Source: Mariprofundus sp. EBB-1 | Lineage (GTDB): Bacteria > Pseudomonadota > Zetaproteobacteria > Mariprofundales > Mariprofundaceae | DNA length: 51,740 nucleotides | Direction: 5' to 3' | Assembly (NCBI RefSeq): GCF_003665155.1 | Contig: NZ_RCFQ01000020.1 | Coordinates: 1 to 51,740, forward strand | Shown: positions 17,845-36,882 of the stretch, piece after piece | Layout: each line of letters starts with the position of its first letter | How positions within the stretch are numbered: position 1 is the stretch's first letter | Notes under the pieces: model-generated | Told to the model about the DNA's origin: nothing | Seen by the model: the letters and a program-made list of their open reading frames with translations, nothing else | The model's database searches: none | Made by a program: the position numbers and the translations under genes

Positions 17845-18339
17845 ATGATATTAAAAAACTACAGAAATATCATAAGAAATAGATATTCATGGTATTTTAA
17901 TCTTGATCGGCCTACCGTTCGTCGCATGTTGTTTGTTGCCCGGCATATGCGTGTTTATTCCCGATTAATGATCGGGCTATTTGCGATGCAAATTTTAGTG
18001 GGCGGTTTTTGTCTGCTGACCAGCGAAGCGCACGCCATGTCGCACTCGGTACAAACGCATGAGATGAGTGCGCATTGCACCAAGTCTGTCGATGGAGATC
18101 ATCAGCATAGTCAGGATCATGCTGGTAATTGCTATCATTGTGATCAACCTGATGAGTTATCGAATTCTGCATTTTCTTCTACGGTGTCGATGGATTTGAC
18201 CTTTTCAGATGTAAGCATCTTACCTGCTGCACTATTGAGTATGGCCGATGCCAGCGGTTTATTGTCTACGCGAACGCCGACCGGACCACCGCGCTCTTCA
18301 ACCCTTCTCTACACCACCACACAACGCATTTTAATCTGA
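17845..18339 (+). CDS. His-rich exported protein heading the metal-resistance island
   Basis: The 164-residue frame contains a hydrophobic segment ending in EAHAMSHS (about residues 40-65), followed by a His/Cys-rich stretch (HCTKSVDGDHQHSQDH, then NCYHCD) that could bind metal, and a C-terminus without clear features. An internal ATG at 17947 would turn the hydrophobic segment into a normal signal peptide; none of the candidate starts has a good ribosome-binding site. Proteins of this layout (DUF2946 or CopL-like) often precede copper efflux genes, but I cannot assign it firmly. It lies 88 bases before the TolC-family gene. Confidence 0.55.
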   Translation: MILKNYRNIIRNRYSWYFNLDRPTVRRMLFVARHMRVYSRLMIGLFAMQILVGGFCLLTSEAHAMSHSVQTHEMSAHCTKSVDGDHQHSQDHAGNCYHCDQPDELSNSAFSSTVSMDLTFSDVSILPAALLSMADASGLLSTRTPTGPPRSSTLLYTTTQRILI

Positions 18340-18427
18340 TTTAGCCCTTCTTCTGAAACCACGACTCAGCTGAGTTGTGGTGCGCCTGTTTCTGCGCGCG
18401 CATTGAAAAGAAGGGAGGCATGTACGC

Positions 18428-19720: not shown

Positions 19721-19722
19721 GT

Positions 19723-19888
19723 CAAAGTCAAAATCATTTCACCGGCCGTTCCAGTGCATCCATGCACTCACGGTATTCGGGCATCCTGCCCATCACACAG
19801 GACGCAAAGGAACGCAAAGGAAAACCAAATCAACAGGTGATGATCTTTAAAGATTCTTCCTCTGCGTCCTTCGCGTCCTTTGCGGTAA
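19723..19888. repeat. CGCAGAGG-type repeats between tolC-like gene and cusB-like gene
   Basis: A pair of inverted arms, 19796-19820 (CACAGGACGCAAAGGAACGC) and 19859-19888 (CCTCTGCGTCCTTCGCGTCC then TTTGCGGTAA), encloses 38 bases. Upstream, AAAGTCAAAATCATTTCACC (19724-19743) resembles the outer extension TGCTTTTGACTTT of other copies in reverse orientation. No gene lies here. The ribosome-binding site of the next gene (GGGAG at about 19900) is just outside the unit. Confidence 0.7.
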
Positions 19889-19910
19889 GAGAATTTAATG
19901 GGAGTAAGGC

Positions 19911-21365
19911 ATGAAGAACACTGGATTAATGATTATGGTGCTTATCGTAGGGCTGGCCGGGGGATATTATTTCTCCGGTATGCAACAGGCATCCAAGCAA
20001 GCTACAAGCGCTGTAAAAATCGAAGTCAAAAGCGATGGGCCATGTGCAGGCGGTGCTCAACCACTGACCTGGCGCAATCCGATGAACCCATCGGTTACCA
20101 GTCCGAAAGCCACCAAGGATAGTATGGGCATGGATTATATTCCGGTCTGTGCCGATGCTGGCGGCAATCAGGGGCCGGCGGGGACTGTGAGAATTGATCC
20201 GACGGTAACACAGGATATTGGTGTGCGTGTCAGTAAAGCTGTTCGCAAAAGTCTATCGCGCGCCATCACTACGGTTGGACGTATCACCTTTGATGAAACC
20301 AAACTGGTGACACTGCATCCCAAGGTGGATGGCTGGGTCGATAAATTATTTATCGATAAGACAGGTGAGAGTGTCAAACTCAATACCATGCTGCTTTCCT
20401 TTTATTCGCCGCAGCTTGTAGCCACGCAGGAAGAATATCTGCTGGCCTTATCCAACTGGCAGCAATTGAAAAACAGCCCGTACACTGATATTCGTGAGGG
20501 TTCGAAACGCTTATTGGAGTCATCACTGGATCGATTGCGTTTCTTTGACGTGGCAGAGCATCAGATTAGAGCACTGAAAAAAACGCATAAAGTGCGCAAG
20601 AGCATGCATATTCATGCGCCAGCAGCAGGCGTGGTAACAAAAATAGGCGTGCGTGAAGGGGCGCATGTCACACCGATGTCCGAGCTTTATCAGATCGCTG
20701 ATCTGTCCCGCGTTTGGGTGCTGGCCGATCTGTACGAGCATGAGATTGGTTGGGTGAAAGAGGGTGATGAGGCGAGATTGAGTATTGCATCCTTGCCCGG
20801 TCGCACGTTCACAGGGCACATCACGTATATTTACCCTTATCTCGATCCCAAGACACGCACCAATAAAGTGCGTATCGAGTTTGATAATGCCGAGGGTCTG
20901 CTCAAGCCGGATATGTTCGGTGATGTGGTGATTACTGCCAGCACGGCCAAGCCCGGCCTGTTTGTACCAAGAGAAGCGGTATTGATCACCGGCAAAAAAG
21001 CCCATCTGTTTGTGCAGGTTGAGCAGGGGCGCTTTGAGCCGCGTACGGTAAAAATAGGCATCAAGGCAGAGGGCTTGGTGGAAATTCTGGACGGCGTGAA
21101 GGAGGGCGAACTGATTGTCACCAGCGGCCAGTTCCTGATCGATTCCGAATCCTCCATCCGCGAAGCCGCCGCTAAGATGGTTGCACCAAAATCATTAACC
21201 GCTAAGGACGCAGGATTAGGCAAAGAAACGCCCAAAATGGACATGAAAGGCATGGACATGGACGCCATGAAAAAGGCTAGCCCCCAAAAACCGAAACCGA
21301 TGGATATGAAGGGCATGAACATGAAAGAGATGAACATGGGAGGAACCACAGATGAACGCAGATAA
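19911..21365 (+). CDS. cusB: RND efflux periplasmic adaptor (CusB type) with Met-rich tail
   Basis: The 484-residue membrane-fusion protein has an N-terminal membrane anchor or signal, a heavy-metal-binding motif region near residues 45-80 (WRNPMNPSVTSP and DSMGMDYIPVC), then the barrel-sandwich and beta-barrel domains (VDGWVDKLFIDKTGESV, IHAPAAGVVTKIGVREGAHV). The C-terminal 50 residues hold repeated MDMKGM/MNMKEM motifs that suit Cu(I) or Ag(I). It would pass metal to the CusA-type pump. The last residues (TTDERR) are encoded by the left arm of a repeat, so the original C-terminus was probably altered by the insertion. The substrate is inferred from Met richness. Confidence 0.88.
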   Translation: MKNTGLMIMVLIVGLAGGYYFSGMQQASKQATSAVKIEVKSDGPCAGGAQPLTWRNPMNPSVTSPKATKDSMGMDYIPVCADAGGNQGPAGTVRIDPTVTQDIGVRVSKAVRKSLSRAITTVGRITFDETKLVTLHPKVDGWVDKLFIDKTGESVKLNTMLLSFYSPQLVATQEEYLLALSNWQQLKNSPYTDIREGSKRLLESSLDRLRFFDVAEHQIRALKKTHKVRKSMHIHAPAAGVVTKIGVREGAHVTPMSELYQIADLSRVWVLADLYEHEIGWVKEGDEARLSIASLPGRTFTGHITYIYPYLDPKTRTNKVRIEFDNAEGLLKPDMFGDVVITASTAKPGLFVPREAVLITGKKAHLFVQVEQGRFEPRTVKIGIKAEGLVEILDGVKEGELIVTSGQFLIDSESSIREAAAKMVAPKSLTAKDAGLGKETPKMDMKGMDMDAMKKASPQKPKPMDMKGMNMKEMNMGGTTDERR

Positions 21366-21434
21366 ACGCAGATTATTTTCTCTCTTAAAAGGTTTTGACT
21401 TTCCTCTGCGTAACTCTGCGTACTCTGCGGTGAA
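21345..21434. repeat. CGCAGAGG-type inverted-repeat unit between cusB and cusA
   Basis: The left arm 21345-21375 (ACCACAGATGAACGCAGATA then AACGCAGATTA) overlaps the 3' end and stop codon of cusB. The right arm 21413-21434 contains CCTCTGCGTAACTCTGCGTA and continues into the extension GCATTTGACTTTGC. The arms are inverted with a short gene-free centre. Confidence 0.75.
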
Positions 21435-21485
21435 AGCATTTGACTTTGCATTTGATTTTGCCTTTTCTGAACTGCGGAGCCAACC

Positions 21486-24400
21486 ATGATCGCCAAAATC
21501 ATTGATGCGAGTCTCCGTAATAAATTAATCATCCTGATTTTCACCGGTCTGCTGGTGGCAGCGGGATCGTTTGCGGTGAAAAATATTTCACTCGATGCCA
21601 TTCCCGATCTGTCCGATGTGCAGGTGATTGTATTCACCAAATATGCTGGTCAGGCACCTCAGGTTGTTGAAGATCAGGTGACCTATCCGTTAACCACATC
21701 CATGCTGGCTGTGCCGCATTCGAAAGTGGTACGCGGATACTCCTTTTTTGGGTTTTCTGTCGTTTACGTCATTTTTGAAGATGGCACCGATATGTACTGG
21801 GCGCGTTCGCGGGTACTGGAATATCTGAATTATGTATCTGGACGACTGCCTGCAGGCGTGAACCCGTCGCTGGGGCCGGATGCAACAGGCGTGGGCTGGG
21901 TGTATGAATATGCGTTGGTGGATAAAACTGGCCAGCATAATTTGGCCGAACTGCGCTCGATTCAGGATTGGTATATGCGTTATGCCTTGCAGACGGTGAA
22001 TGGTGTCTCCGAAGTGGCCTCTATCGGCGGTTTTGTGAAGCAGTACCAAGTCGAAGTCGATCCTAATGCGCTGGCTGAATTAGGTATTCCATTGGCCAAG
22101 GTGAAACATGCCATTAAACGCTCCAATAATGATGTGGGTGGTCGTCTGGTGGAAATGGGCGAAACCGAGTACATGGTGCGTGGCAAGGGTTATCTCAAAG
22201 GCATCGCTGATTTGGAGAGTATTCCAGTCGGTGTAGATACGCACGGTACACCGATTCTGTTGCGCAATGTGGCGAATATTCATTTGGGGCCGGAGCTGCG
22301 GCGCGGTTTGTCTGAACTTAATGGTGAAGGCGAAGTGGCTGGTGGCGTTATCATTATGCGTTTTGGCGAAAATGCGCTCAAAACCATTGAAGCTGTGCGT
22401 GAGAAACTGGATGAATTGAAGTCCGGCTTACCTGCGGGGGTGGAGATCGTACCAACCTATGATCGTGGCGGCTTGATCGAGCGGGCAGTAGACAATCTCA
22501 AAGATAAATTGGTTGAGGAGTTTCTAGTTATTTCGTTGGTCTGTATGTTGTTTCTGATGCATGCCCGTTCAGCGCTGGTGGCTATCATTACCTTACCGCT
22601 GGGTGTGTTGATGGCATTCATGTTGATGCAGTGGCAGGGATTGGCGGCGAACATTATGTCACTCGGTGGTATTGCCATCACGCTTGGAGCCATGGTCGAT
22701 GGTGCGATTGTGCTGATTGAAAATGCCCATAAACATCTGGAGCAGGCGCTGCATGAAAAGAAGAGTCAGAGTCAAAATCTTTTATCATCAGAGAATGATG
22801 AGGGTAGTGCGCCTGAAAGTGGTGAGGTTGAACTGACTGTTTCCGAGCGTTGGGCGGCTGTGGGCAGAGCTTCGCGGGAAGTGGGGCCGGCGCTGTTTTT
22901 CTCGTTGTTGATTATTACCGTTTCTTATATGGCGATTTTCACGTTGGAAGCACAGGAAGGACGTCTGTTTAAGCCGTTGGCATTTACGGCGACTTACGCG
23001 ATGCTGGGTTCGGCAGTGCTGGCGATTACCTTGGTGCCATTGCTGATGGGCTGGTTTATTCGGGGCAAGGTGATGCCGGAGGAAAAGAATCCGGTCAATC
23101 GCGCCTTGCAGTGGGCGCATGGGCCAATGCTGGCAGGGGCGCTTAAACATAAGACGATCACAATTCTTGTCGCGATTGGGCTGCTCTTTTCGATGGCTAT
23201 TCCAATGGGTAAAATCGGTTCGGAATTTATGCCTCCGCTGGATGAAGGAGATATTCTCTACATGCCAACCACCTTCCCCGGTATTTCGATCACCAAGGCG
23301 AAAGAGCTATTACAGCAAACAGACAAGATCCTGAAAACCTTTCCCGAAGTGCAATCGGTATTCGGCAAGGTTGGTCGCGCTGATACGGCGACCGATGCCG
23401 CACCGTTGGCGATGATCGAAACCATTGTACGCCTGAAACCGAAAGCAGACTGGCCTGATGCGGAGAAAACCACTCAGGCGCTGATGAAAGAGATGGATAG
23501 TGCCATCAAGTTTCCGGGGCTCGCTAACGCCTGGACCTACCCGATCAAGACGCGTATCGATATGCTTTCAACCGGCATCAAAACACCGATTGGCATTAAG
23601 GTATCGGGCCCCGATTTGAACGTACTTCAAGAGGTGGGCATATCCATTGAACGGGCCGTGAAAACCTTACCGGAAACGACCTCGGCATTCAGTGATCGTG
23701 CTGCTGGCGGTTATTATCTGGATATTGATATTCAGCGTGATCGAGCCGCCCGCTATGGGCTGACGATCGGTGATATCGAGGATGTGATTCAGTCGGCCAT
23801 TGGTGGCATGAATGTCACCCAGACGGTGGAAGGATTGGAGCGTTATCCAGTAAATCTGCGTTATCCACGTGATTACCGCTCAGATCCAGAGGCTTTGAAG
23901 CGGGTGCTGATTCCAACGCCTACCGGGGCCCAGATTCCTCTGGTGTCGGTGGCAAATATCAGTGTGTTGCGCGGGCCACCGGTGATCAAGACAGAAAATG
24001 CACGCCCGAATGCCTGGGTCTATGTTGATATTTCGACATCGGATATCGGTGGTTATGTGGCCAGAGCCAAGCAGGTGATTGCTGATAAGGTCACCATTCC
24101 ACCGGGTTATACGCTGGAATGGTCGGGACAATTTGAATATATGGAACGCGCCTCGGCCAAGATGCGCATTGTGATTCCTGCGACGCTGCTGCTGATCTTC
24201 CTGTTGCTCTATTTTAATTTCGGTAATTTAGCGGCCCCCATCGTGGTGATGCTGTCGGTACCATTCTCACTGATCGGTGGTTTCTGGCTGGTCTGGTGGT
24301 TGGGTTTCAATTTGAGCGTGGCGGTGGCTGTTGGCTTTATCGCCTTAGCCGGTGTTTCCGCCGAAATTGGTGTGTTGGTGCTCACCTTCATTGATCAGGA

Positions 24401-24707
24401 AGTATCGCAGTGGCGAGAAAGAGCTGGCGGTGCGTTAAGCCCGGATAGCATGCGAAAAGCTGTGCAAAGCGGTGTGGCCAAACGTGTGCGTCCAATCGCG
24501 ATGACGGCCACGGCTGTCATCGCAGGTCTGGTGCCGATTATGTTGGGCGGTGGTACAGGCTCGGATGTCATGCAACGCATCGCAGCACCTATGATCGGTG
24601 GCATGGTGACAACCACCTTGCTGAGCTTGATCGTATTGCCAGTGATTTACGGTTTGGTATTACAATTTAAAGAAAAGAAATTTAATCAACACGAGGATAC
24701 AATATGA
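21486..24707 (+). CDS. cusA: Heavy-metal RND transporter (CusA type)
   Basis: The 1073-residue inner-membrane pump uses the proton gradient to expel Cu(I)/Ag(I) through the TolC-type channel. It begins MIAKIIDASLRNKLIILIFT and has SLDAIPDLSDVQVIV, the proton-relay helix GAMVDGAIVLIENAHKHLE with its Asp, and TRIDMLSTGIKTPIGIKVSG, the last being close to the CusA region that holds a metal-binding Met; EFMPPLDEGDILYMPTTFPG is also conserved. These favour monovalent metal over Zn/Co. After HKHLE the loop is about 20 residues longer than in E. coli CusA and contains repeat-like DNA (22770-22793). The stop overlaps the next gene in an ATGA. Confidence 0.93.
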   Translation: MIAKIIDASLRNKLIILIFTGLLVAAGSFAVKNISLDAIPDLSDVQVIVFTKYAGQAPQVVEDQVTYPLTTSMLAVPHSKVVRGYSFFGFSVVYVIFEDGTDMYWARSRVLEYLNYVSGRLPAGVNPSLGPDATGVGWVYEYALVDKTGQHNLAELRSIQDWYMRYALQTVNGVSEVASIGGFVKQYQVEVDPNALAELGIPLAKVKHAIKRSNNDVGGRLVEMGETEYMVRGKGYLKGIADLESIPVGVDTHGTPILLRNVANIHLGPELRRGLSELNGEGEVAGGVIIMRFGENALKTIEAVREKLDELKSGLPAGVEIVPTYDRGGLIERAVDNLKDKLVEEFLVISLVCMLFLMHARSALVAIITLPLGVLMAFMLMQWQGLAANIMSLGGIAITLGAMVDGAIVLIENAHKHLEQALHEKKSQSQNLLSSENDEGSAPESGEVELTVSERWAAVGRASREVGPALFFSLLIITVSYMAIFTLEAQEGRLFKPLAFTATYAMLGSAVLAITLVPLLMGWFIRGKVMPEEKNPVNRALQWAHGPMLAGALKHKTITILVAIGLLFSMAIPMGKIGSEFMPPLDEGDILYMPTTFPGISITKAKELLQQTDKILKTFPEVQSVFGKVGRADTATDAAPLAMIETIVRLKPKADWPDAEKTTQALMKEMDSAIKFPGLANAWTYPIKTRIDMLSTGIKTPIGIKVSGPDLNVLQEVGISIERAVKTLPETTSAFSDRAAGGYYLDIDIQRDRAARYGLTIGDIEDVIQSAIGGMNVTQTVEGLERYPVNLRYPRDYRSDPEALKRVLIPTPTGAQIPLVSVANISVLRGPPVIKTENARPNAWVYVDISTSDIGGYVARAKQVIADKVTIPPGYTLEWSGQFEYMERASAKMRIVIPATLLLIFLLLYFNFGNLAAPIVVMLSVPFSLIGGFWLVWWLGFNLSVAVAVGFIALAGVSAEIGVLVLTFIDQEVSQWRERAGGALSPDSMRKAVQSGVAKRVRPIAMTATAVIAGLVPIMLGGGTGSDVMQRIAAPMIGGMVTTTLLSLIVLPVIYGLVLQFKEKKFNQHEDTI

Positions 24708-25261
24708 AAAAACTAAATTCAGGATCAATTAAGCGGGTAAACTCAAAAGGCTTTATCTGGGCTATGGGTTTTGCTGCATTATTGCTCGGCGCATGTGATC
24801 AAACGACGGATACAAAGCAAAACACCGCAGCAATGGCCACGACTACTGCTACCGTATCGTCAACCAAGCAGTCAGCGCAACCACTCAAGCCGGAAGTGGT
24901 GATGTATAAGCCCCCAACATGTGATTGTTGCACTGGATGGGCTGAGCATTTGCGCAAAGATGGTTTTACAGTCGTGGTGCATAAACGTGACGACATGGAT
25001 GTGATCAAATCCAAATACGAGGTAACCGATAAACTGGCTTCCTGTCATACCGCTATCGTCGATGGTTATGTCATTGAAGGGCATGTGCCAGCAGCCGATG
25101 TTGAACGCTTGCTCAAAGAGCGACCTGATGTTGTCGGGCTGACTGCACCGGGTATGCCGATGAAATCTCCGGGCATGCAAACTGTGGGTCAAAAACCTGA
25201 AGCTTATGATGTGTTGGCCTTTGACAAGGATGGCAACACCACTGTGTTTCATAAATATTAA
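24704..25261 (+). CDS. DUF411 lipoprotein
   Basis: The 185-residue protein has a lipobox (LLLGAC, Cys31) and a DUF411 domain with PPTCDCCTGWAEHL, KLASCHTAIVDGYVIEGHVP and LTAPGMPMKSPGMQ. The Cys and Met motifs suit metal binding in the periplasm, and DUF411 genes usually travel with copper resistance genes, but the biochemical role is not established to my knowledge. The ATG overlaps the cusA stop, so the two are coupled. A paralogue at 31165-31620 precedes the second ATPase. Confidence 0.88.
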   Translation: MKKLNSGSIKRVNSKGFIWAMGFAALLLGACDQTTDTKQNTAAMATTTATVSSTKQSAQPLKPEVVMYKPPTCDCCTGWAEHLRKDGFTVVVHKRDDMDVIKSKYEVTDKLASCHTAIVDGYVIEGHVPAADVERLLKERPDVVGLTAPGMPMKSPGMQTVGQKPEAYDVLAFDKDGNTTVFHKY

Positions 25262-25331
25262 GGATGGGTTGGCTGGCTAAAAGCGCAGCCTATTTGATCA
25301 TATTGAAGAATAAGGAATATAGGAGAACAGT

Positions 25332-25856
25332 ATGAAAAAAATGATATTAATAATTGCAGGCATGCTGTTGTTGGCATCAGTGCAGATTGCTTCGGCAAAT
25401 GATGATACAAGGAAAATACATGGTGTTCATTACCATGGGCCATTGCATGGGGATAAAGATTCGCAGCAGATGAGCTCAATGAAGAAGGGCATGTTCCTTG
25501 AAAAAAAGGATATTGATGGATATGCCGTCAGCTTTCATGCCATGGCAGTGAAAAAGAATATGCAGCATGGCGGCACGCATAATTATTTGATCAAGGTGGA
25601 AAAAGATGGCACGGCTCTTGGCGATTTAACCGTGAATTCAAAGGTGACACACCCCAATGGTAAATCCGAATCAAAAATGATGATGAAGATGGGCGACTGG
25701 TATATGGCCGGTTACGATCTGGGACACAAGGGCGAGCACCAGTTAATGGTGCTGTTTAAAACACCGGATGGGAAAAAGCATTTTGGTGGTGTTCATTATT
25801 CAGAAATGATTTCAGTTCATGAAAAAAGTCATTCTCATGAGATGACGCATGAATAA
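25332..25856 (+). CDS. Met/His-rich secreted protein, first of a paralogous pair
   Basis: The 174-residue protein has a signal peptide ending in SANDD and a mature part with many His and Met residues (VHYHGPLHGD, MMMKMGDWYMAGYD, VHYSEM, HEKSHSHEMTHE). The second half matches the next protein: THPNG..K..MMKMG.WYMA.Y.L.H...H.L.V.F...GK....GVHY. It looks like a small beta-sandwich comparable to YtkA/FixH-like periplasmic domains. Position in the cus island suggests a periplasmic Cu/Ag-binding protein. AGGAG lies about six bases before the ATG. I do not recognise a named family. Confidence 0.7.
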   Translation: MKKMILIIAGMLLLASVQIASANDDTRKIHGVHYHGPLHGDKDSQQMSSMKKGMFLEKKDIDGYAVSFHAMAVKKNMQHGGTHNYLIKVEKDGTALGDLTVNSKVTHPNGKSESKMMMKMGDWYMAGYDLGHKGEHQLMVLFKTPDGKKHFGGVHYSEMISVHEKSHSHEMTHE

Positions 25857-25881
25857 GGTCATTAATAATAGGAGACCAGTC

Positions 25882-26355
25882 ATGAAATATCTTCTTCTCA
25901 TGGGCTTATTAGTTTCATTTGCAGCATGTTCATTGCAGCAACATGCTCAAACCCCAAAAAGCGAGAAAGCGGCGCATAATTCGATCGCCAAAAGTATGGA
26001 TCATGAACATAGCTTTTTTGTGACTAGAAAAGGTGTTCGCGATGGCTATGTGTTTATTTTTCATGTTATGCCTGCCCCTGAAGGTGAAGGATTTAGTCGC
26101 GAAAATTATCATCTTATGGTGAGCGTTGAAAAAGACGGGCAGGCCATTACTGATCTCACTCTTTACGCCGATGTCAAACATCCCGATGGCACGATTCAGA
26201 AAAAAGCGCCGATGATGCAAATGGGTGCTTGGTATATGGCCTTGTATAATCTTAGCCATGAGATGGGGCAGCATTGGTTGACAGTCTCTTTTGAGCATCA
26301 GGGTAAATCGTATTCTTCTGGCGTGTATTACCCTGAACGCGTCTATCATGAGTGA
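25882..26355 (+). CDS. Lipoprotein, second of the Met/His-rich paralogous pair
   Basis: The ATG at 25882 follows AGGAG (25870-25874) by seven bases and starts a lipoprotein signal with lipobox FAAC; the frame extends eleven codons further upstream but that start overlaps the previous gene. The mature protein shares the core KHPDG...MMQMGAWYMALYNLSH with the preceding gene, so the two arose by duplication, one soluble and one anchored to a membrane. The final bases overlap the start of the next gene by eight. Function is inferred only from context and Met/His content. Confidence 0.7.
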   Translation: MKYLLLMGLLVSFAACSLQQHAQTPKSEKAAHNSIAKSMDHEHSFFVTRKGVRDGYVFIFHVMPAPEGEGFSRENYHLMVSVEKDGQAITDLTLYADVKHPDGTIQKKAPMMQMGAWYMALYNLSHEMGQHWLTVSFEHQGKSYSSGVYYPERVYHE

Positions 26356-26839
26356 ACTGCATCAATGCCCAGTTTGTGGAATGGAAGTAAATACTTCCAA
26401 TCTATGGGCTGATCATCTCGGTACGACGTATTATTTTTGCATTGAACAATGCAAAGAGAATTTTTTAGCACGGCCCAGATTATATCTCGGTAAATCGTCA
26501 ATCAAAAACGTAGGAAAATGCATCTTGAAACGTCGAACCTTCCTGCTTGCCGAACCCGTGGTAGGGCTTAACCGTGAGACGCTTCTGATGCACTTGAATC
26601 AACTGATGAGTGTGCACAATGTTGTGCTTGAAGGTGGCAGAGTTTCTATTGATTATGATTTGCTCGAAGTGCATGCCGAGCAAATTGAAGCGGTCTTGAT
26701 TAAGGCTGGTGCATCGATGGGGGCAGGCTGGGCTACGCGATTTAAACGTAGCTGGATTCATTATATTGAAGAAACTGAACTGGATAATTTAGCGGCATCG
26801 GATGCGGCTTGTTGCAATAAAGCACCAGCAAAGGTTTAG
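26348..26839 (+). CDS. YHS-domain protein with HMA-like C-terminal domain
   Basis: Translation from the ATG at 26348, which overlaps the previous stop, gives about 163 residues. The N-terminal 45 residues form a YHS domain (HQCPVCGMEV, then YYFCIEQCKENF), a small Cys-based metal-binding module. The next 75 residues, beginning KRRTFLLAEPVVGL, have the length and pattern of a ferredoxin-like HMA fold but lack its CxxC. The tail ends ASDAACCNKAP with a Cys pair. An in-frame start at 26291 would reach further back, but only through the preceding gene. A cytoplasmic metal-delivery role for the downstream ATPase is a reasonable guess. Confidence 0.65.
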   Translation: MSELHQCPVCGMEVNTSNLWADHLGTTYYFCIEQCKENFLARPRLYLGKSSIKNVGKCILKRRTFLLAEPVVGLNRETLLMHLNQLMSVHNVVLEGGRVSIDYDLLEVHAEQIEAVLIKAGASMGAGWATRFKRSWIHYIEETELDNLAASDAACCNKAPAKV

Positions 26840-26938
26840 CATAAATGATGTGTTCAATCGTGTGAGGTGGTATCTCTTGTTTCACTTTATTTCACTTGGT
26901 GAAGCAGCGAATAGGAAGTAGTAAATGGAGGCAATATA

Positions 26939-29488
26939 ATGAATATTGATCCGGTTTGTGGCATGGAAGTAAATCCAAAATCTCAGGACCATACTGAATT
27001 TGATGGTCATACATGGCATTTTTGTAGTGCTTCTTGTCAGGAGAAGTTCGAGGCTAGACCTGAGCAGTTTACGATAGATGTTGTTTGCGGCATGCATGTG
27101 AAACCGGAGTCGGTACACCGCGTTAAACATCAGAATATTGCTTACCGTTTTTGTAGTGGGAAGTGTAAAGATAAATTTTCAGTAGATCCGGATACATATA
27201 CAACCAGCCAGCACGCTTGTGATAAACATCATGAACATAAAACCGACGTTGCTGATAATCCTGATGCCACATACTTTTGCCCGATGTGTCCGGGTCAGGA
27301 GCAGCAGGGGCCGGGTACGTGTAAAGTCTGTGGCATGGCTTTGGAGCCGATGGCTGCGCCGACACTGCATGAAAAAACAGAATACGTCTGTCCCATGCAC
27401 CCTGAAGTGATTAGCGATGTGCCGGGCTTATGTCCCAAGTGTGGTATGGCGCTCGAATCGCGCACCGTGACTGCTGAAGAAGATCATGCCGAACTGGATG
27501 ATATGACGCGCCGTTTCAAGCTTGCTGCAGTATTGGCTATTCCGGTATTTTTTCTGGCTATGATCGCAGATCTGGCTCCATCTTGGTTGCCGTCCGGTTT
27601 AGGAATGGGCACGGTACAATGGATTGAATTTAGTTTGGCGACCCCTGTTGTGCTATGGGGTGGCTGGCCGTTTTTCGAACGTTTTGCTCTCTCTCTGAAA
27701 ACATGGAACCTGAACATGTTCACACTGGTTGGTCTGGGTGTCGGGGTGGCATGGATTTACAGTGTTGTTGCATTGCTCTTTCCCGATCTGTTCCCTCCTT
27801 TGATGCAGATGGAAGGTGGGCTTGTTGATGTCTATTTTGAAGCTGCAGCAGTGATTACAGCGCTAGTTTTGTTGGGACAGGTGCTTGAGCTACGCGCCCG
27901 TTCCCGTACCAATGAAGCAATCAAATTATTGCTCGGCATGGCACCGAAAACAGCGCGGCTGGTCAAAGCCGATGGTGAGGAAGTGGATGTGCCGATGGAA
28001 GACGTGCAGGTAGGTGACACGCTGCGCATTCGTCCGGGCGAAAAAGTGCCGGTTGATGGCATTGTTACCAAAGGTGAAAGTCTGGTGGATGAATCCATGG
28101 TGACCGGTGAGCCTGTTCCGGTTGAGAAATTTGTAGGTGAAAAACTGATCGGTGCAACAGTCAATGCCAATGGTTCGTTGTTGATGCAGGCTAAAAAAGT
28201 GGGTGCGGACACCTTATTATCACAAATTGTAAACATGGTGGCTGATGCCCAGCGTTCACGTGCCCCTATACAGAAGATGGCCGATACCGTGGCAGGCTTC
28301 TTTGTCCCTGTGGTGATTGGCATTGCGGCACTGGCTTTTACTGTCTGGTTTTTTGTTGGTCCGGAGCCTCGTTTGGCACATGCGATGATTAATGCCGTTG
28401 CCGTGCTGATTATCGCCTGCCCGTGCGCCTTGGGCCTAGCGACACCGATTTCAATCATGGTTGGCACAGGTCGCGGGGCGACAGCAGGGGTGCTGATCAA
28501 AAACGCCGAAGCGTTGGAGATCATGGAAAAGGTCAATACGGTCGTGGTGGATAAAACGGGTACGCTGACCGAAGGCAAGCCAAGTCTTAGTACGGTACTG
28601 GCCACAGCCGATATTGCTGAAGATGAGGTGTTGATGCTGGCCGCAAGTCTCGAGCGAGCCAGTGAACACCCATTGGCAGCGGCGATTGTCGCGGGAGCCG
28701 AGCTACGCAAATTGAAATTGCAACGTGTTGAAGATTTCACAGCAGTGACAGGCAAAGGTGTGCAGGCGAACATAGGTGGCAGGAGCGTGTTGCTGGGCAA
28801 TGCCAGACTGATGCAGGATTATGAGGTTGATATCCAGGCCGTATCATCCGATGTCGAAACACATCAATTATCCGGGGAAACGGTGATGTATTTGGCTGCG
28901 GATCATCAGTTAATTGGCTTGATCGGCGTATCGGATCCGATCAAGGCTTCGACACCGGATGCCATCAAAGAGCTGCGCGATGAGGGTATTGAAGTGGTGA
29001 TGCTGACCGGGGACAATCATCATACGGCAGCAGCGGTTGCTGCGAAATTGGGGATTGAACGTTTCGAGGCTGACGTGTTACCGGATCAAAAAGCAGCCGT
29101 AGTGAAAGCCTTGCAGGCGGAAGGTAAAACCGTGGCCATGGCGGGCGATGGCATCAATGATGCGCCGGCTCTAGCACAGGCGCATGTCGGTATTGCCATG
29201 GGCACTGGTACGGATGTGGCTATGGAATCAGCCGGTGTCACACTGATTAAAGGTGATTTGACCGGTATTGTGCGGGCGCGCCGTTTATCACGCGCCACCA
29301 TGAAAAACATCCGCCAGAATCTGTTTTTCGCATTCATCTATAATTCAGCAGGTGTGCCGATTGCAGCCGGTGCACTGTATCCGATGTTTGGCCTGTTGCT
29401 CTCGCCGGTGATTGCCGCAGCAGCGATGAGTTTTAGCTCCGTTTCCGTGATCACCAACGCGCTGCGATTGCGTAATACGAAGCTGTAG
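26939..29488 (+). CDS. copA: P1B-type Cu/Ag ATPase with two YHS and two CPM(H/C)P modules
   Basis: The 849-residue pump exports Cu(I)/Ag(I) from the cytoplasm using ATP. Four short Cys modules precede the membrane part: YHS (IDPVCGMEV, 4-12), a second YHS-like unit ([10 protein letters not shown], near 48), YFCPMCPG (near 111) and YVCPMHPE (near 148); no ordinary HMA domain is present. The core has the metal site CPC in [15 protein letters not shown], the phosphorylation site [11 protein letters not shown], the HP motif [22 protein letters not shown] and the C-terminal [15 protein letters not shown]. Eight hydrophobic helices fit the family. AATGGAGG precedes the ATG. The catalytic part is very similar to the second ATPase at 31648. 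Confidence 0.93.
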
Positions 29489-29514
29489 TGCAAAAATAAT
29501 AACAGGAGTAGTAA

Positions 29515-30279
29515 ATGATTGAAGTCACATGGGCAGGAGCCCTGCTTGCCGGTTTGTTATCGTTTTTATCACCGTGCGTATTGCCGTTGGTGCCGGCTTA
29601 TTTGTCGTATATTTCCGGCGTGTCAGTGGATGAATTGCGTCAACATGATGAGGCATCGGCAGGTGTGCGGCGGAGGGCATTGATGCAGTCGTTGTGGTTT
29701 GTGTCGGGTTTTAGTCTGGTGTTTATTGCGCTCGGTGCGTCCGCGACATTGCTGGGGCAATGGATGCTCAGTCATATGGATATGCTAGGAAAAGTTGCCG
29801 GTGCAATTATTGTGGTGTTTGGTTTGCATTACACAGGACTGATTCGGATTCAATTATTGATGATGGATGCGCGTTTTGATGCTGGAGGCGTTAATTCCAA
29901 CAAAGGGATCGGCGCGTTGATTTTAGGCTCGGCTTTTGCCTTTGGCTGGACACCTTGCATTGGCCCCATTCTCGGCGCGATTCTTGCGGTGGCTGGCAGT
30001 CAGACCAATATGCTAAATGGAATTTTTCTCTTGCTGGCCTATTCGCTGGGTTTGGCGATTCCTTTTTTATTGGCAGCGCTGGCGACCGATTCGTTTTTGC
30101 GTTGGTCGCAAGGCTTTAAACGGCATCTGGCTATAATTGAAAAGATATCGGGTGTGTTATTGATTGCTGTAGGTCTATTGATTTTCTTTGGTAGTTTCAG
30201 TGTGATCTCGGCGTGGTTGATTGATTGGTTTCCAGCTTTGGCTGATATCGAAGGTGCTTTTTCAGATTTAGCACCATAA
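29515..30279 (+). CDS. ccdA: CcdA/DsbD-type thiol-disulfide electron carrier
   Basis: The 254-residue, six-helix membrane protein has the two conserved Cys motifs SFLSPCVLPLVPAYLSYISG near residue 20 and FGWTPCIGPILGAILA near 145. CcdA moves electrons from cytoplasmic thioredoxin to periplasmic thiol proteins, best known in cytochrome c maturation. Here, 26 bases after the ATPase and inside the metal island, it may keep periplasmic Cys-bearing metal proteins reduced; this role is inference. It could equally serve the abundant cytochrome at the window start. AGGAG lies seven bases before the ATG. Confidence 0.9.
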   Translation: MIEVTWAGALLAGLLSFLSPCVLPLVPAYLSYISGVSVDELRQHDEASAGVRRRALMQSLWFVSGFSLVFIALGASATLLGQWMLSHMDMLGKVAGAIIVVFGLHYTGLIRIQLLMMDARFDAGGVNSNKGIGALILGSAFAFGWTPCIGPILGAILAVAGSQTNMLNGIFLLLAYSLGLAIPFLLAALATDSFLRWSQGFKRHLAIIEKISGVLLIAVGLLIFFGSFSVISAWLIDWFPALADIEGAFSDLAP

Positions 30280-30313
30280 GTCCGACAGATTCCTAGCTTA
30301 GAGAGGTGTCACG

Positions 30314-30946
30314 ATGTTTACTGTATATGGCCCGGGTGCAACTGATCCTATTCCTTTGGAGAGGCTGTTTGTACGTCCTGCGGTAACGAAACCGGCTGCG
30401 ATTTCTGCCATGCAAGGGATTAAAGCTAAAACAAACTCCAATGTTCATACAGGAAGCGAATCTCACTCCGCAGCAGGGCTGCAACAGTATCACAGTGCAG
30501 AAACGATAAGCGAAAAAAATCCATCCCTTAAAGCTGTGCAAATTATGACTACTTCCGTAGTTTATGTGTTGTCGAGTGCGAGCGTAGCTGTGGCGCTGAA
30601 AGAGTTAGAGTCAAGTCAGTTTCGTCACATTCCCGTGCTTTCGGATGAATATCAGCTTGTTGGTATGATTTCGGACAGGGATATTGTGCGTTGCATGTGT
30701 GGTTCGGGCAATGTGTGTGTGCACTGCGCCAAGGACAAACAAGAGATAACGGTTGAGACGATCATGAAGGGCAATGTGCTTAGTGCATCTGTGGACACGG
30801 ATGCACGTTATATCGCCAGACTTTTTGTAGAACAACGTATCGGAGCCATGCCGATCACGGACGAGGGTCAATTGGTTGGTATGATTACGCGAAGTGATAT
30901 TCTCAAGGCTGTAATGGTTCATTTTGATTTGAACCTTTGGTCATGA
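30314..30946 (+). CDS. Two-CBS-domain protein with an inserted Cys cluster
   Basis: The 210-residue protein has a poorly conserved N-terminus (1-70) and two CBS domains (about 72-130 and 145-208: QFRHIPVLSDEYQLVGMISDRDI and IGAMPITDEGQLVGMITRSDI). CBS pairs usually bind adenosine nucleotides. Between them lies a Cys cluster, C127-x-C129-x5-C135-x2-C138 with His137, which could hold zinc, copper or an iron-sulfur cluster. That insertion and the location between the two ATPase groups suggest a metal- or energy-sensing switch. The ribosome-binding site GAGAGGTG precedes the ATG. No partner enzyme domain is fused. Confidence 0.82.
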   Translation: MFTVYGPGATDPIPLERLFVRPAVTKPAAISAMQGIKAKTNSNVHTGSESHSAAGLQQYHSAETISEKNPSLKAVQIMTTSVVYVLSSASVAVALKELESSQFRHIPVLSDEYQLVGMISDRDIVRCMCGSGNVCVHCAKDKQEITVETIMKGNVLSASVDTDARYIARLFVEQRIGAMPITDEGQLVGMITRSDILKAVMVHFDLNLWS

Positions 30947-31164
30947 ACATGCATCCACAGTAACCGGTTTGAGATAAAACAAGGTTGATGGAGTGCTAGC
31001 TTGCCGCGCATTATCTTGGCGGTGCTGTTGTTTCCGAAGCTTAGGCCCTGTCATTTTTGGCAGCGGTTGATTTTTATATGAAATGTAGAAGCATCCGCAA
31101 CAATCTGAATAGTTTTTTATACGATTAGCTTTTTGAAGCTATCGGTTTGATGAAGGAGTGATCA

Positions 31165-31620
31165 ATGAATGCGATAAAAGTGGGCCTTGGAGCCATCTTG
31201 ATGATTAGTGTTGGATTGTTTGTAGCCAAGATCAATGAGGGTGATGCAACCGAAGTCGTGATGCATAAGTCAGCAAACTGTGAATGTTGCTCAGAATGGG
31301 GCGCTCATATGAAGGATAATGGCTTTACAGTCGTTGAAAAGACACATGACAATATGAGCGAAATTAAAAGGACGCTTGGTATGCCTGAAAAATTGGCATC
31401 GTGTCATACCGGTGTGATTGGTGGTTATTTGATTGAAGGGCATGTGCCTGCTGCTGATGTACAACGTTTGTTAAAAGAGCGGCCTGATATCATTGGTCTG
31501 ACTGCACCGGGAATGCCGATGAATTCACCTGGTATGCAGAAAAAAGGTCAGGAACCCAAGGGCTATGATGTGCTGGCGTTGAATCATGACGGCACAACAT
31601 CTGTTTACGCTCATTATTGA
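31165..31620 (+). CDS. DUF411 protein, second copy
   Basis: The 151-residue protein has an N-terminal hydrophobic segment (about 6-22) and a DUF411 domain (KSANCECCSEWGAHM, KLASCHTGVIGGYLIEGHVP, LTAPGMPMNSPGMQ). It is close to the lipoprotein at 24704 over the whole domain but is anchored or secreted by a normal signal segment. GAAGGAG lies about seven bases before the ATG, and the second CopA follows 27 bases after its stop. The pair DUF411 + CopA therefore looks like a duplicated module of the island. Confidence 0.87.
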   Translation: MNAIKVGLGAILMISVGLFVAKINEGDATEVVMHKSANCECCSEWGAHMKDNGFTVVEKTHDNMSEIKRTLGMPEKLASCHTGVIGGYLIEGHVPAADVQRLLKERPDIIGLTAPGMPMNSPGMQKKGQEPKGYDVLALNHDGTTSVYAHY

Positions 31621-31647
31621 TTGTATGTTAGGGCTTAAGTTCTAATC

Positions 31648-33912
31648 ATGAACGAACAGCCTGTCATTCGTCTGTCGGTTAGCGATATGCGTTGTGCCGG
31701 CTGTATCAGTAAAGTCGAAGCGGCTATTGATAGTGTTGATGGGGTGGCGCAGGCGAGCGTCAGTCTTGCCGATCACACAGCCATTATCTTTGTCCATGCA
31801 GATCACGTAGGCCGAATGCATGAGTTGGGCGATGCTGTCATTGCAGCCATCGCCAATACGGGTAGGGAAGCAACACGCCTGTCTGTTTCTGATGATGTGA
31901 ATGTCCGGCCCGAGACATCCACAGAGCAGGATGGGCAGAGTAAAAAACGACTATTACAGGTGCTGGTCGCAGGTGTGGCTGGTTTTGGGCTGATGGCCGC
32001 CAATATGGCAGGGCTGTTGCCTGCCATAAGCGCAGATCATACTGTTTTCTGGATCGGGGTCGCACTGATCACGGCTATGATCATGCTGGCCACTGGTTTT
32101 GATTATTACAGAGGTATGCTGCGTGGTTTTAAATATCGCAGTGGCAGTATGGATACACTCATTGGCCTGGGTACGGCCTCTGCCTGGTGTTACTCGACTG
32201 TACTGGTGATCAACCCCGATCTGATTGTTGAAGCCGCCCGCCATACCTATTTTGAAGCTGCTCTGATTATTTTAGCCCTGATCAATCTTGGTCAGTGGTT
32301 AGAGTCGCGCGCCAAAGGCAAGACTGGGGAGGCGATTCGCCTGCTCTGTGGACTGCAAGCCAGAGATGCCCGGCTGGTTCGTGATGCCGATGACGGGACA
32401 GTCGAGATCGATATTCCCATTTCACAGGTGCGGGTAGGGGATATTCTACGTGTGCGGCCGGGTGAAAAAGTGCCTGTCGATGGGCGTGTGACAGAAGGCC
32501 AAAGCGTACTGGATGAATCAATTATCTCCGGTGAGTCCATGCCGGTGCTCAAAAGTGCTGGTGATGCCGTGATTGGTGGCACCATCAATGCCACAGGTTC
32601 GCTGCTGATTCAGGCCGAACAGATTGGCCATGATACGGTGTTGGCCCACATTATTGATACCGTGCGCATCGCTCAGGCCAGTAAACCGGCCATTGCCAAA
32701 TTGGCTGATCGTGTGGCCAGCATCTTTGTCACTGCGATTATCTCTATTGCTCTGCTGACCTTTGTCATCTGGTGGTTTTTCGGCCCTGAACCATCATCTG
32801 TTTACGCTTTTACCACCATGATGAGTGTGTTGCTGATCGCTTGCCCATGTGCGCTGGGTTTGGCGACACCGATTTCAATCATGGTGGGCACAGGTCGCGG
32901 TGCGACAGCAGGCATCTTAATCAAAAACGCCGAAGTGTTGGAGATGCTGGAAAAGGTCACTACCGTCGTAGTGGATAAAACGGGTACCCTGACCGAAGGA
33001 AAACCTAGTCTGAGTACATTACATTCTATTGGCGCTATGGCTGAAGATGATCTGCTGTCGCAGGCTGCAAGTCTGGAGCAAGGCAGTGAACATCCGTTAG
33101 CCGCAGCCGTGCTAGAGGCCGCCAAAGAGCGCGAGCTCTCCTTAGAAACAGTGGACGATTTTGCTGCACTGCCTGGAAAAGGCGTTCAAGGTTTGATGAA
33201 TCAACAAACACTCCTGCTCGGTAATGCAACACTGATGAACGATGCAGACATTAAGATCTGCGAGCATGCGGAGCTGGTTGAACAGCATCAGCAGGCTGGT
33301 GAAACCGTCATCTATCTTGCAGTGAATGGAGCACTGGCCGGTTTGATCGGTATCTCTGACCCGATCAAGACTACGACACAGGAAGCCATCACAGCTTTGC
33401 ATGATGAAGGCATAGAAGTGGTGATGCTGACCGGTGATAACCATCATACAGCTCAAGCTGTTGCTACTAAATTAGGTATTAAACATTTTGAAGCCGAAGT
33501 ACTGCCAGAGCAAAAGGCGGCAGTCATCAAACAACTACAGGATGAAGGCAATATCGTTGCGATGGCAGGTGACGGTATCAACGATGCACCTGCGTTAGCG
33601 CAAGCCCATGTTGGCATTGCCATGGGGACAGGCACCGATGTAGCGATGGAGTCGGCCGGACTCACCCTGATCAAAGGTGATTTGAATGGTATTGTGCGGG
33701 CGCGCCGTTTATCACGCGCCACCATGAAAAATATTCGCCAGAACCTGTTCTTCGCCTTCGTCTATAATTCCGCAGGTGTACCCATTGCGGCAGGGATTCT
33801 CTATCCCTTCTTTGGCTTACTATTGTCACCCGTTATCGCAGCAGCAGCCATGAGTTGCAGTTCGGTCTCTGTCATCACCAATGCACTGAGGTTACGTTCG
33901 ACCAAGTTGTAG
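31648..33912 (+). CDS. copA: P1B-type copper-exporting ATPase with N-terminal HMA domain
   Basis: The 754-residue pump has one N-terminal HMA domain ([20 protein letters not shown]), then the same catalytic core as the first ATPase: [52 protein letters not shown]. The last helix reads [15 protein letters not shown], with a Cys in place of the Phe of the first copy. Long DNA stretches are nearly identical between the two genes (for example around 29255-29330 and 33685-33760), indicating recent duplication or gene conversion. The different N-termini suggest that the pumps are loaded by different chaperones. Confidence 0.94.
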
Positions 33913-34047: not shown

Positions 34048-34545
34048 CTAACTTACTGCCTCTCTTAGGTCGTTGAGTGGAAGTAATAAATGCAATGGGT
34101 CGGTAGGAGAGGTTTGCATGCCGAACTGTTGATACCACTGTTTGGTCTGCTTATCTTTGGCATGAACGAGAAATGCCCGACAACCGGCAATATCGGCGAC
34201 CATTAGGGTTCGCAGCATGGCATCTTTGAGCAGCGCTTTGCCCATACCTTGCCCTTGGTATTGTTGATCAACAGCTAGACGTGCCAGCAGAATGACAGGA
34301 ATAGGGTAGCGGGGCTGGCCGGCGGTGATGTTGGCGGGTACATGTTTATGGCTGACCGAGGAGAGGGTGATGGTGTAAAATCCGGCCACATGGCCGGCGT
34401 TACAGCTTACGTAGGTGGTTGAATTTCCGGATCGCTGATTGATGAAGGCATGTGATTTCAGAAACCGATTCAGATCATAGTTGCCACAATCGAATGCCGC
34501 GACATTACTCTGATCCGAAAGCTTTTCCGGTACAGAAAAACTCAC
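34048..34545 (-). CDS. GNAT acetyltransferase toxin (TacT-like)
   Basis: The 165-residue GNAT protein has the features of TacT/AtaT toxins: FDCGNYDLNRFLKSHA near the start, VAGFYTITLSSVS, the acetyl-CoA loop LARLAVDQQYQGQGMGKALL, and LVHAKDKQTKQWYQQFGM. Known members acetylate aminoacyl-tRNA and stop translation. The start codon overlaps the antitoxin stop in an ATGA, the normal order for this class. It is transcribed away from the iron-uptake operon. Confidence 0.9.
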   Translation of the reverse strand: MSFSVPEKLSDQSNVAAFDCGNYDLNRFLKSHAFINQRSGNSTTYVSCNAGHVAGFYTITLSSVSHKHVPANITAGQPRYPIPVILLARLAVDQQYQGQGMGKALLKDAMLRTLMVADIAGCRAFLVHAKDKQTKQWYQQFGMQTSPTDPLHLLLPLNDLREAVS

Positions 34546-34817
34546 TGAAAAAGAGTTTTTTCGTTCATTAGCTTTTTCAGCTTAGCATTCGACTGAACAG
34601 GACGTTCCAGTACAGCTTCAAATGCGGCCATCTGTTGATCATCGAGCAGAAATAATCTGCGATCAGCCATCACTTCCACTGCTTCATGGCGGGCACAATC
34701 AACAACAAATTCACTGAGCTTTTTACCCATCGCATCAGCCGCTTGTTGCAGCATGCTCTTGATGTCCTTCGACATGCGTAACTCTAATCGAGCATCTCTG
34801 GTTTGACTTACAGCCAT
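34542..34817 (-). CDS. DUF1778 antitoxin (TacA-like)
   Basis: From the ATG at 34817, with GGAGG ten bases upstream, the protein has 91 residues: an N-terminal ribbon-helix-helix (ARLELRMSKDIKSMLQQAAD, then FVVDCARHEAVEV) for DNA binding and a C-terminal tail (DDQQMAAFEAVLERP) that neutralises the toxin. The frame is open further upstream but only through promoter DNA. It should repress its own operon; the first Fur box lies only about 80 bases before its start codon. Confidence 0.9.
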   Translation of the reverse strand: MAVSQTRDARLELRMSKDIKSMLQQAADAMGKKLSEFVVDCARHEAVEVMADRRLFLLDDQQMAAFEAVLERPVQSNAKLKKLMNEKTLFQ

Positions 34818-34898
34818 ATTGTTACCTCCAATATGATCGAAAGGTAGCACAATTACTTTTATTCGTACAATAGACGGGATTCCCAACAAGGCATCGCT

Positions 34899-34946
34899 AA
34901 TGATAATGATTATCATTGACATGCGCTATTGATAATCATTATCATT
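34899..34946. promoter_or_regulatory. Tandem Fur boxes
   Basis: AATGATAATGATTATCATT (34899-34917) is a perfect 9-1-9 palindrome. ATTGATAATCATTATCATT (34928-34946) differs from the palindromic ideal at one base. Both match the Fur consensus and their centres lie 29 bases apart. The second ends 17 bases before the cupredoxin start codon, so Fe-Fur should block transcription of the iron operon. The first may also affect the divergent toxin-antitoxin promoter. Confidence 0.92.
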
Positions 34947-34963
34947 CGACTATGAGGTATAAG

Positions 34964-35320
34964 ATGAATATGACTAATGTATATAGCAGTAATATTAAAG
35001 GGGTCTTTCTGATAATGGGGCTGCTGGGAAGCTTTGCATTTCCCAGCTTGGTTAGTGCTGCTAATTATGAGATTATCATTGAAAATCACCGTTTTATTCC
35101 GAGTGAGTTGGAAATCAGTGCCGATGAGAAGCATCGCCTGATAGTCATTAATAAAGACGCCACACCGGAAGAGTTCGAAAGCTATGAACTTAATCGAGAA
35201 AAAATTGTGGCAGGTCACTCCCGTATCACTGTTTTCCTCTCTCCACTGGATGCTGGCACCTACCCCTTCTTTGGTGAATTCAATGCAGAGACGGCCCAGG
35301 GCCGCCTGATTGTGAAGTAG
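34964..35320 (+). CDS. Periplasmic cupredoxin-like protein of an FTR1 iron uptake system
   Basis: The ATG at 34964 follows GAGG (34954-34957) by six bases and starts a protein of 118 residues with a signal peptide ending near LVSAANY; the longer frame would read through the Fur box. The mature 90 residues form a cupredoxin-type beta-sandwich (ENHRFIPSELEISADEKHRL, then AGTYPFFGEFN), as in the EfeO/P19-type partners of FTR1 permeases. A full type 1 copper site is not evident, since the usual Cys is missing, so the role may be structural or Fe-binding. It is the first gene of the Fur-controlled operon. Confidence 0.85.
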   Translation: MNMTNVYSSNIKGVFLIMGLLGSFAFPSLVSAANYEIIIENHRFIPSELEISADEKHRLIVINKDATPEEFESYELNREKIVAGHSRITVFLSPLDAGTYPFFGEFNAETAQGRLIVK

Positions 35321-35331
35321 GGGGGGCTGTC

Positions 35332-36882
35332 ATGTTATCCACTCTGATAATTGTATTTCGTGAAGTGCTGGAGGCGATGCTGGTGGTTGGTATTGCGACC
35401 GCTGCAGCGCGCGAAGTGAATATTGGCGCACGTTGGATTTATGGCGGTCTTCTAGCAGGTCTATTTACTGCAATGATCGTGGCTTTAGGTGCTGAGTTTA
35501 TCGCTGCATCCATGCAGGGCATGGGACAGGAATATTTCAATGCTACGGTACTACTGACTGCGGCACTGTTGATGAGCTGGACCGCGATCTGGATGGGTAA
35601 ACATGGCCGGGAAATATCGACACGCATTCGTCAGGTTTGTAAGGCGGATGAGGTCGATAGTTCAAGTGCATGGATATTGGCAACGGTAGTTGCACTGGCG
35701 GTAGCCAGAGAAGGCGCTGAAGTGGTGCTGTTTCTGCATGGTGTGGCTGCAACAGGCGGCGCAGGAAGCGTTGCAATGTTAAGTGGAGCAGGTATTGGCA
35801 TTGTGCTCGGCGTGCTGGTGGCGGTGGTGCTCTACCGCAGTCTGATCAAACTACCGATCAGGCATGTGTTTTCCGTAGTCACGTTTTTGATTGTGTTGTT
35901 GGCTGCAGGCATGGCCTCGCAAGGCGTATCTTATCTGGTCATGATTGATGAGCTACCGGCGCTGGGGCAAACAGTCTGGAATACTTCCGCTATGATTTCT
36001 GAGCGTAGTGCTCTAGGACAGGTGTTGCATGCCTTGATGGGTTATGATGATCGGCCTAGTGGCATGCAGGTGTTGGCATTTGTGATGACCATCTCTTTGA
36101 CATGGATGGCGGTGCGGTGGCAGAAGTCAGCGCCGAAAAAAGCACCGCAAAAGGCGGTTGTTACGGCAGCGGTGATGCTCTTGCTTTGCAGTGTTTCTAT
36201 GTTGCCATCAGATGCAGAAGCGAAGAAAGTGTATTCGCCGATCGTTGAACAGGGTGAGGTCGAATTTGAGTATTCACTGGATTATGATATCGATGCTGAT
36301 CCGGCCAAGAATACGAATGCGCGTCATCAGTTTGAAATGGAGTTTGGTGTCACTGACCGTTGGATGACAGCCATCTATGGCGATTTCAGAAAGCGACCGG
36401 GGCAGGCTTTTGCATATCAGGGCTTAAAATGGGAAAATATATATCAGCTGTTTGAGCAGGGTGAGCGATATCTGGATGCTGGGTTGTATTTTGAATATAT
36501 CATTCCTCAGGCTTCATTGAATAAACCGGATGCCTTTGAATTTAAACTGCTGCTTGAAAAAGAAAGTGGCCGCCTCAGTAATACATTCAATCTGATTTTA
36601 AAAAAGGAGCTGGGAGCGAAGGCTGTGAAGAATACGACCGTAGCTTACAGTTGGAAGAGCAACTGGCGCTGGAAGCGTTATCTTGAGCCGGGTATAGAAA
36701 TGTATGCAGCACTGGGTGAATTTGGTAATACAAGTCCTTTATCCAGCCAAACACATCAAGTCGGCCCGGTGTTAACGGGTAAATTCCACAACGGGATAAA
36801 TTATGAAGTAGGTTATCTGTTTGGTCTAACGACAGCCTCAGCGCAAGGATCAGTGAAGTGTATTCTGGGGTATGAGTTTTAA
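35332..36882 (+). CDS. FTR1 iron permease fused to a C-terminal barrel-like domain
   Basis: Residues 1-265 form an FTR1 permease of about seven helices with two REXXE iron motifs (Arg10-Glu14 and Arg126-Glu130). The ORF then runs on without a stop into a second signal-like segment (275-297, AVVTAAVMLLLCSVSMLP then SDAEA) and about 219 residues that look like an outer-membrane beta-barrel: alternating aromatic strands (EVEFEYSLDY, GLYFEYIIPQ) and a terminal Phe in ILGYEF. Usual FTR1 permeases end near 280 residues. It may be a true fusion, or two proteins made from one frame by an internal start or by signal peptidase cleavage. It follows the cupredoxin gene by 11 bases and shares the Fur control. 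Confidence 0.85.
   Translation: MLSTLIIVFREVLEAMLVVGIATAAAREVNIGARWIYGGLLAGLFTAMIVALGAEFIAASMQGMGQEYFNATVLLTAALLMSWTAIWMGKHGREISTRIRQVCKADEVDSSSAWILATVVALAVAREGAEVVLFLHGVAATGGAGSVAMLSGAGIGIVLGVLVAVVLYRSLIKLPIRHVFSVVTFLIVLLAAGMASQGVSYLVMIDELPALGQTVWNTSAMISERSALGQVLHALMGYDDRPSGMQVLAFVMTISLTWMAVRWQKSAPKKAPQKAVVTAAVMLLLCSVSMLPSDAEAKKVYSPIVEQGEVEFEYSLDYDIDADPAKNTNARHQFEMEFGVTDRWMTAIYGDFRKRPGQAFAYQGLKWENIYQLFEQGERYLDAGLYFEYIIPQASLNKPDAFEFKLLLEKESGRLSNTFNLILKKELGAKAVKNTTVAYSWKSNWRWKRYLEPGIEMYAALGEFGNTSPLSSQTHQVGPVLTGKFHNGINYEVGYLFGLTTASAQGSVKCILGYEF

Follow-up and report, generated by a model that had tools for sequence, protein, structure and literature searches.

The described systems that come closest to the locus presented here are EfeUOB of Escherichia coli and the P19–FTR1 system of Campylobacter. 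With EfeUOB the locus shares an FTR1-family permease recognized by profile, two REXXE motifs and a cupredoxin partner, and EfeO itself carries an N-terminal cupredoxin-like domain (PMC3143127). It differs from EfeUOB in having a barrel, the coding sequence of which either is part of the permease gene or lies next to it, and neither an EfeO imelysin domain nor an EfeB peroxidase was found in the gene neighbourhood. The likeness to P19–FTR1 lies in the combination of an FTR1 permease with a periplasmic partner, a pairing that FtrABCD presumably has as well. Because the Campylobacter FTR1/P19 gene cluster itself contains no outer-membrane receptor, an unidentified one has been proposed (PMC6083913). 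The Mariprofundus operon differs from this cluster in that it does encode a barrel; no P19 gene was recognized in its vicinity.

FapF of Pseudomonas, a 12-stranded outer-membrane secretion channel, provides the best match among solved folds at about 10% identity, but it serves the export of functional amyloid and has no link to a permease. As regards a single gene whose product is cut into two proteins by signal peptidase, we take the cytochrome b/c1 precursor FbcH of Bradyrhizobium to be the nearest precedent. FbcH consists of a polytopic inner-membrane protein, an internal signal peptide and a second protein that is released by signal peptidase. The two FbcH products share one inner-membrane complex, whereas the products of the Mariprofundus gene would reach different membranes. 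No description of this fusion was found in the literature searched, in which the coverage of subscription papers and preprints was incomplete, and annotation pipelines may give the fusion the label ‘FTR1 family protein’.

The permease and the C-terminal domain share one reading frame

The locus lies in a 51,740-nucleotide stretch of DNA from Mariprofundus sp. EBB-1, a marine iron oxidiser (contig NZ_RCFQ01000020.1), hereafter called the window. The fused gene (35332–36882, plus strand) is a complete frame of 516 codons with an ATG start and a TAA stop, and it encodes an FTR1 permease, a predicted internal signal peptide and a predicted barrel in a protein of 516 amino acids. The FTR1/EfeU-type permease part comprises residues 1–262 (35332–36117, plus strand). 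Residues 1–261 match the Pfam family FTR1 (PF03239) with an E-value of 7.4e-31 and 107.9 bits against a gathering score of 25.3. The same residues match the NCBIfam EfeU model with an E-value of 2.7e-37; the 128.7 bits reached fall below the model cut-off of 255, and we therefore regard the permease as a member of the FTR1 family and not as an EfeU equivalog. Two REXXE motifs are present on the plus strand, REVLE at residues 10–14 (35359–35373) and REGAE at residues 126–130 (35707–35721); their R/E/E residues are kept in relatives, and in an alignment of 11 fused relatives R10, E11, E14, R126, E127 and E130 are invariant. A search of the organism's own 2.88-Mb genome gave no second FTR1. The C-terminal domain takes up residues 298–516, a length of 219 residues, the last of which is Phe. 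The original prediction, which had described a complete FTR1 permease with both motifs running into a segment ending in SDAEA and a 219-residue domain with a terminal Phe, is thus borne out in all of these features by the open reading frame and the PF03239 match.

An open frame of this kind could result from a sequencing or assembly error that deleted a stop codon. This explanation, to which we assign next to no probability, is refuted by whole-genome searches, in which the identical open frame recurs in 33 genomes with 12 family codes within the Pseudomonadota, with linkers that differ from each other; the join is therefore not a sequencing error. Twelve of the 33 genomes carry the family code of the window (the genome of the window and 11 further Zetaproteobacterial genomes, with the copies in G012 and G052 ending at contig ends), eight belong to f95, three to f81 and ten are spread over nine others (f197, f184, f96, f206, f219, f319, f289, f286 and f349), so that 21 fused genomes belong to families other than that of the window. 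Eight of nine close matches, all on contigs that bear the name Mariprofundus, Mariprofundaceae or Zetaproteobacteria, share the open frame; in the remaining one (L010) the barrel stands by itself. A check of the frame in relatives had been called for with the original prediction, and it came out in favour of the fusion: no member of the fused clade has a stop codon or frameshift between the two parts, and insertions and deletions in the linkers of fused relatives are multiples of three, that is, whole codons. Within the fused genes of Mariprofundus, pN/pS is 0.20 in the barrel, 0.27 in the permease and 0.58 in the linker, and the value for the barrel indicates that selection acts on this fused part as a protein.

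A predicted internal signal peptide in the linker

The linker (residues 263–297; 36118–36222, plus strand) is made up of a basic loop and a hydrophobic stretch which closes with SDAEA at residue 297 and thus with a signal-peptidase-I-like AEA site, the predicted cut falling after position 36222. This layout is common to all 24 fused loci examined, each of which combines a loop of net positive charge with a hydrophobic core, Ala at −1 and Ala, Val, Thr or Ser at −3; for one of them (L127) the pick of the script was wrong and an AWA site was assigned by eye. The AxA-type site stands four or five residues ahead of the SP in the VYSP-like start of the domain. A loose scan for AxA also picks out 73% of the 13-residue windows of the permease part. 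This background is high, the proteins being rich in Ala, and the argument therefore rests on the fixed position of the site and on stand-alone homologues rather than on the presence of the motif. Stand-alone barrels elsewhere have, at the equivalent point, a normal N-terminal signal peptide with a matching cleavage motif, which strengthens the proposed reading of the linker as a signal peptide. Two Mariprofundus genomes (G058 and G046) have a barrel without permease that is nested in the fused clade and keeps the signal peptide. FTR1 permeases end on the cytoplasmic side, and this fits with a signal peptide placed next.

Two other readings of the linker have to be considered. According to the first, which we hold to be quite improbable, an internal ribosome start ahead of the signal peptide makes the barrel separately and the fused frame merely drops a stop codon. 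It is true that the linkers of most fused genes contain several ATG, GTG or TTG codons and that stand-alone barrels start at about the linker position; however, no start codon with a Shine–Dalgarno-like sequence is conserved in place, any such pair being present in only 4 of the 24 loci, and the reading frame is maintained across linkers of varied length. In the second reading the hydrophobic stretch would form an eighth helix that is not cut, and permease and barrel would remain a single, tethered protein. In its favour, the cleavage is a prediction, and the stretch has the hydrophobicity needed for a membrane-spanning helix. In the AlphaFold2 model, though, the predicted cut and the start of the first strand are about 14 residues apart. 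A segment of this length could not bridge the periplasm, and a barrel in the outer membrane would therefore have to be released. Moreover, the AxA-type site is retained in 24 out of 24 loci and homologous stand-alone barrels use the stretch as a normal signal peptide, and we judge a tethered protein to be highly improbable. An internal signal peptide is the reading of the linker that we prefer.

Fold of the C-terminal domain

The domain following the predicted cut (residues 298–516; 36223–36879, plus strand) ends in YEF, and Phe is the terminal residue in most of the 24 relatives. Using an alignment with these relatives, AlphaFold2 predicted a barrel of 12 strands with a pLDDT of 94.7 and a pTM of 0.88. 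The original prediction that the C-terminal part is barrel-like, and not a soluble fold, agrees with this model. The model is a closed barrel with an even number of strands, and in this as in the signal-peptide layout and the C-terminal aromatic residue it has the properties of outer-membrane beta-barrels. A model of the full-length fused protein, which was based on a thin alignment and had a pLDDT of 54.8, was set aside for its low confidence. The best matches of the barrel model in the PDB, as found with Foldseek, were FapF structures (TMq 0.79, E-value 1.4e-6), and these were followed by general porins, OmpG and Tsx. Sequence searches of the domain against Pfam, NCBIfam and the PDB gave no family above threshold and no PDB match. 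The domain of the window itself does not match Phenol_MetA_deg (PF13557) and is not assigned to this family, which is weakly matched by 3 of the 24 barrel relatives with a best E-value of 0.0037. Conserved acidic and basic residues of the barrel tend toward an every-second-residue pattern in the strands, and because of this alternation the sequence suggests a polar barrel lumen.

Gene neighbourhood and evolution of the fusion

The operon consists of the fused gene and a gene for a secreted cupredoxin of 118 amino acids (34964–35320, plus strand; Pfam Cupredoxin_1, E-value 6.8e-24), which contains the motif EFESYELNREK and has no Cys copper ligand. In an alignment of the operon cupredoxins, EFESxxLxREK is the best-conserved stretch and is retained in nearly all of the operons, and the Cys copper ligand is likewise missing. 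The stretch occupies the place of the Cys/His/Met ligands of copper cupredoxins and is possibly an iron site.

Of the 108 barrel loci that were classified, 31 have the barrel fused to FTR1. In another 29 the barrel is a gene of its own, with its own signal peptide and with FTR1 as its same-strand neighbour, and the remaining 48 show neither arrangement. A cupredoxin precedes nearly all fused and adjacent copies. In a tree of 101 barrels the fused state requires 13 changes, at least six of which are forced by strong branches, and AU tests against one fused clade gave p-values of 5e-6 for the barrel and 7e-4 for the permease. As a single fused clade is rejected, fusion, or fission, happened repeatedly. 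The fusion is thus recurrent and arises on a conserved cupredoxin–FTR1–barrel gene order, which goes beyond the original prediction.

Several candidates were rejected as fusions. The FTR1 frames of four Zetaproteobacterial genomes (G018, G029, G023 and G027) are long from stop to stop, have no barrel match and represent ordinary permeases of about 263 amino acids; the frame in G027 ends at a contig end. Barrel-matching frames in the range of 386–551 amino acids have FTR1 adjacent in another frame in L174, L179, L194 and L195, and in L187 FTR1 was not found. A separate case is a conjugative plasmid of Hydrogenophaga sp. PBL-H3 (L147, 3931–4680), on which FTR1 is followed by a barrel gene interrupted by TAG; this interrupted barrel is annotated as two hypothetical proteins.

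Since 48 of the 108 barrel loci have no neighbouring FTR1, a tie between barrel and iron does not hold for all lineages. The precursor might accordingly be cleaved as we propose while the barrel has a job other than iron entry, such as envelope sensing, export of small molecules or proteins, or efflux. We regard this as unlikely, but it is the strongest rival, because many barrels lack FTR1 and some of them lie among two-component and copper genes: stand-alone Zetaproteobacterial relatives are found beside two-component and copper-handling genes without FTR1, and FapF, the closest solved fold, exports a polypeptide. On the other hand, 60 of the 108 loci have the barrel either fused with FTR1 or next to it, and in Zetaproteobacteria Fur boxes lie ahead; both observations speak against another job. 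Some of the barrel relatives without FTR1 adjoin copper genes. Stand-alone Zetaproteobacterial barrels near two-component regulators with no FTR1 nearby include L079, L082, L083 and similar loci, in which a CxxCH protein with AIPVFARKYGLSCNSCH also lies near the barrel, possibly reflecting a second role of the barrel family.

Fur boxes and genomic surroundings

An exact-match scan of the genome located two Fur boxes in front of the operon. Box 1 (34901–34915) reads TGATAATGATTATCA and is a perfect 7-1-7 inverted repeat, and box 2 (34930–34944) reads TGATAATCATTATCA. The sequence TGATAATNATTATCA occurs at exactly two sites in the 2.88-Mb genome, both directly ahead of the cupredoxin gene. Boxes with zero or one mismatch also precede eight of the nine Zetaproteobacterial fused operons for which upstream sequence is available, as well as two operons in other families (L167 and L131). 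A gene for a Fur-like regulator, as judged by sequence, is located just upstream in some relatives (L088 and L089). The suggestion made at the outset that the operon is under Fur control gains support from the two perfect boxes.

The neighbours of the operon are a TacA/GNAT pair and an opposite-strand gene that resembles those for glucose-1-phosphate adenylyltransferase. The former (34048–34922, minus strand) encodes a TacA1-type antitoxin (PF08681) and a GNAT acetyltransferase, likely a toxin–antitoxin pair of the TacAT type; it is divergent and adjacent to the Fur boxes, and the start of the longest antitoxin frame overlaps the first box. Ahead of the iron operon lies a large metal-handling cluster (17845–33912) with an outer-membrane efflux protein, parts of a CusAB-like RND pump, two copper P-type ATPases and two DUF411 proteins, gene identities that were partly judged by sequence. 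Elsewhere in the window, the gene at 228–1484 (plus strand) encodes a 418-amino-acid protein without Pfam match which has AIPAFARQTGAACLSCH near its start. We take this motif to resemble the heme motif of the Cyc2-type cytochrome-porins of iron oxidisers.

Discussion

In our opinion the locus probably encodes a Fur-controlled cupredoxin–FTR1–barrel iron importer whose permease and barrel arise from a single precursor through cleavage by signal peptidase I. The frame, the domain identities, the barrel fold, the signal-peptide layout, the gene association, the repeated fusion and the Fur boxes were all computed, and from them we infer the topology, the cleavage, the location in the outer membrane, the passage of iron and an equal stoichiometry of the products; iron as the substrate is suggested by the gene company and the regulation. 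According to this proposal, permease and barrel would be translated as a single precursor, the permease part of which would insert into the inner membrane while the basic loop past its last helix would remain cytoplasmic. The hydrophobic stretch would then act as an internal signal peptide and start Sec export of the barrel, and signal peptidase I would cleave past the AxA site, leaving the permease behind. Once released, the barrel would be handed to the Bam machine for assembly in the outer membrane, where it would admit iron, or an iron complex, to the periplasm. There the acidic cupredoxin may bind the iron or pass it on, and FTR1 would move it across the inner membrane.

A more general proposal can be made tentatively, at slightly less than an even chance. 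It would be that a recurrent bacterial precursor, split by signal peptidase I, supplies both membranes from one gene in a fixed ratio, the inner one with an iron permease and the outer one with a dedicated iron channel, and that the barrel family serves as the outer-membrane part of cupredoxin–FTR1 iron uptake. A barrel that is encoded adjacent to FTR1 and is repeatedly fused with it is a direct candidate for the outer-membrane step that is missing from related systems, and the fusion is an unusual and testable precursor whose two products would go to different membranes. Zetaproteobacteria live by oxidising iron, and in these bacteria the fused system may bring in nutritional iron under Fur control.
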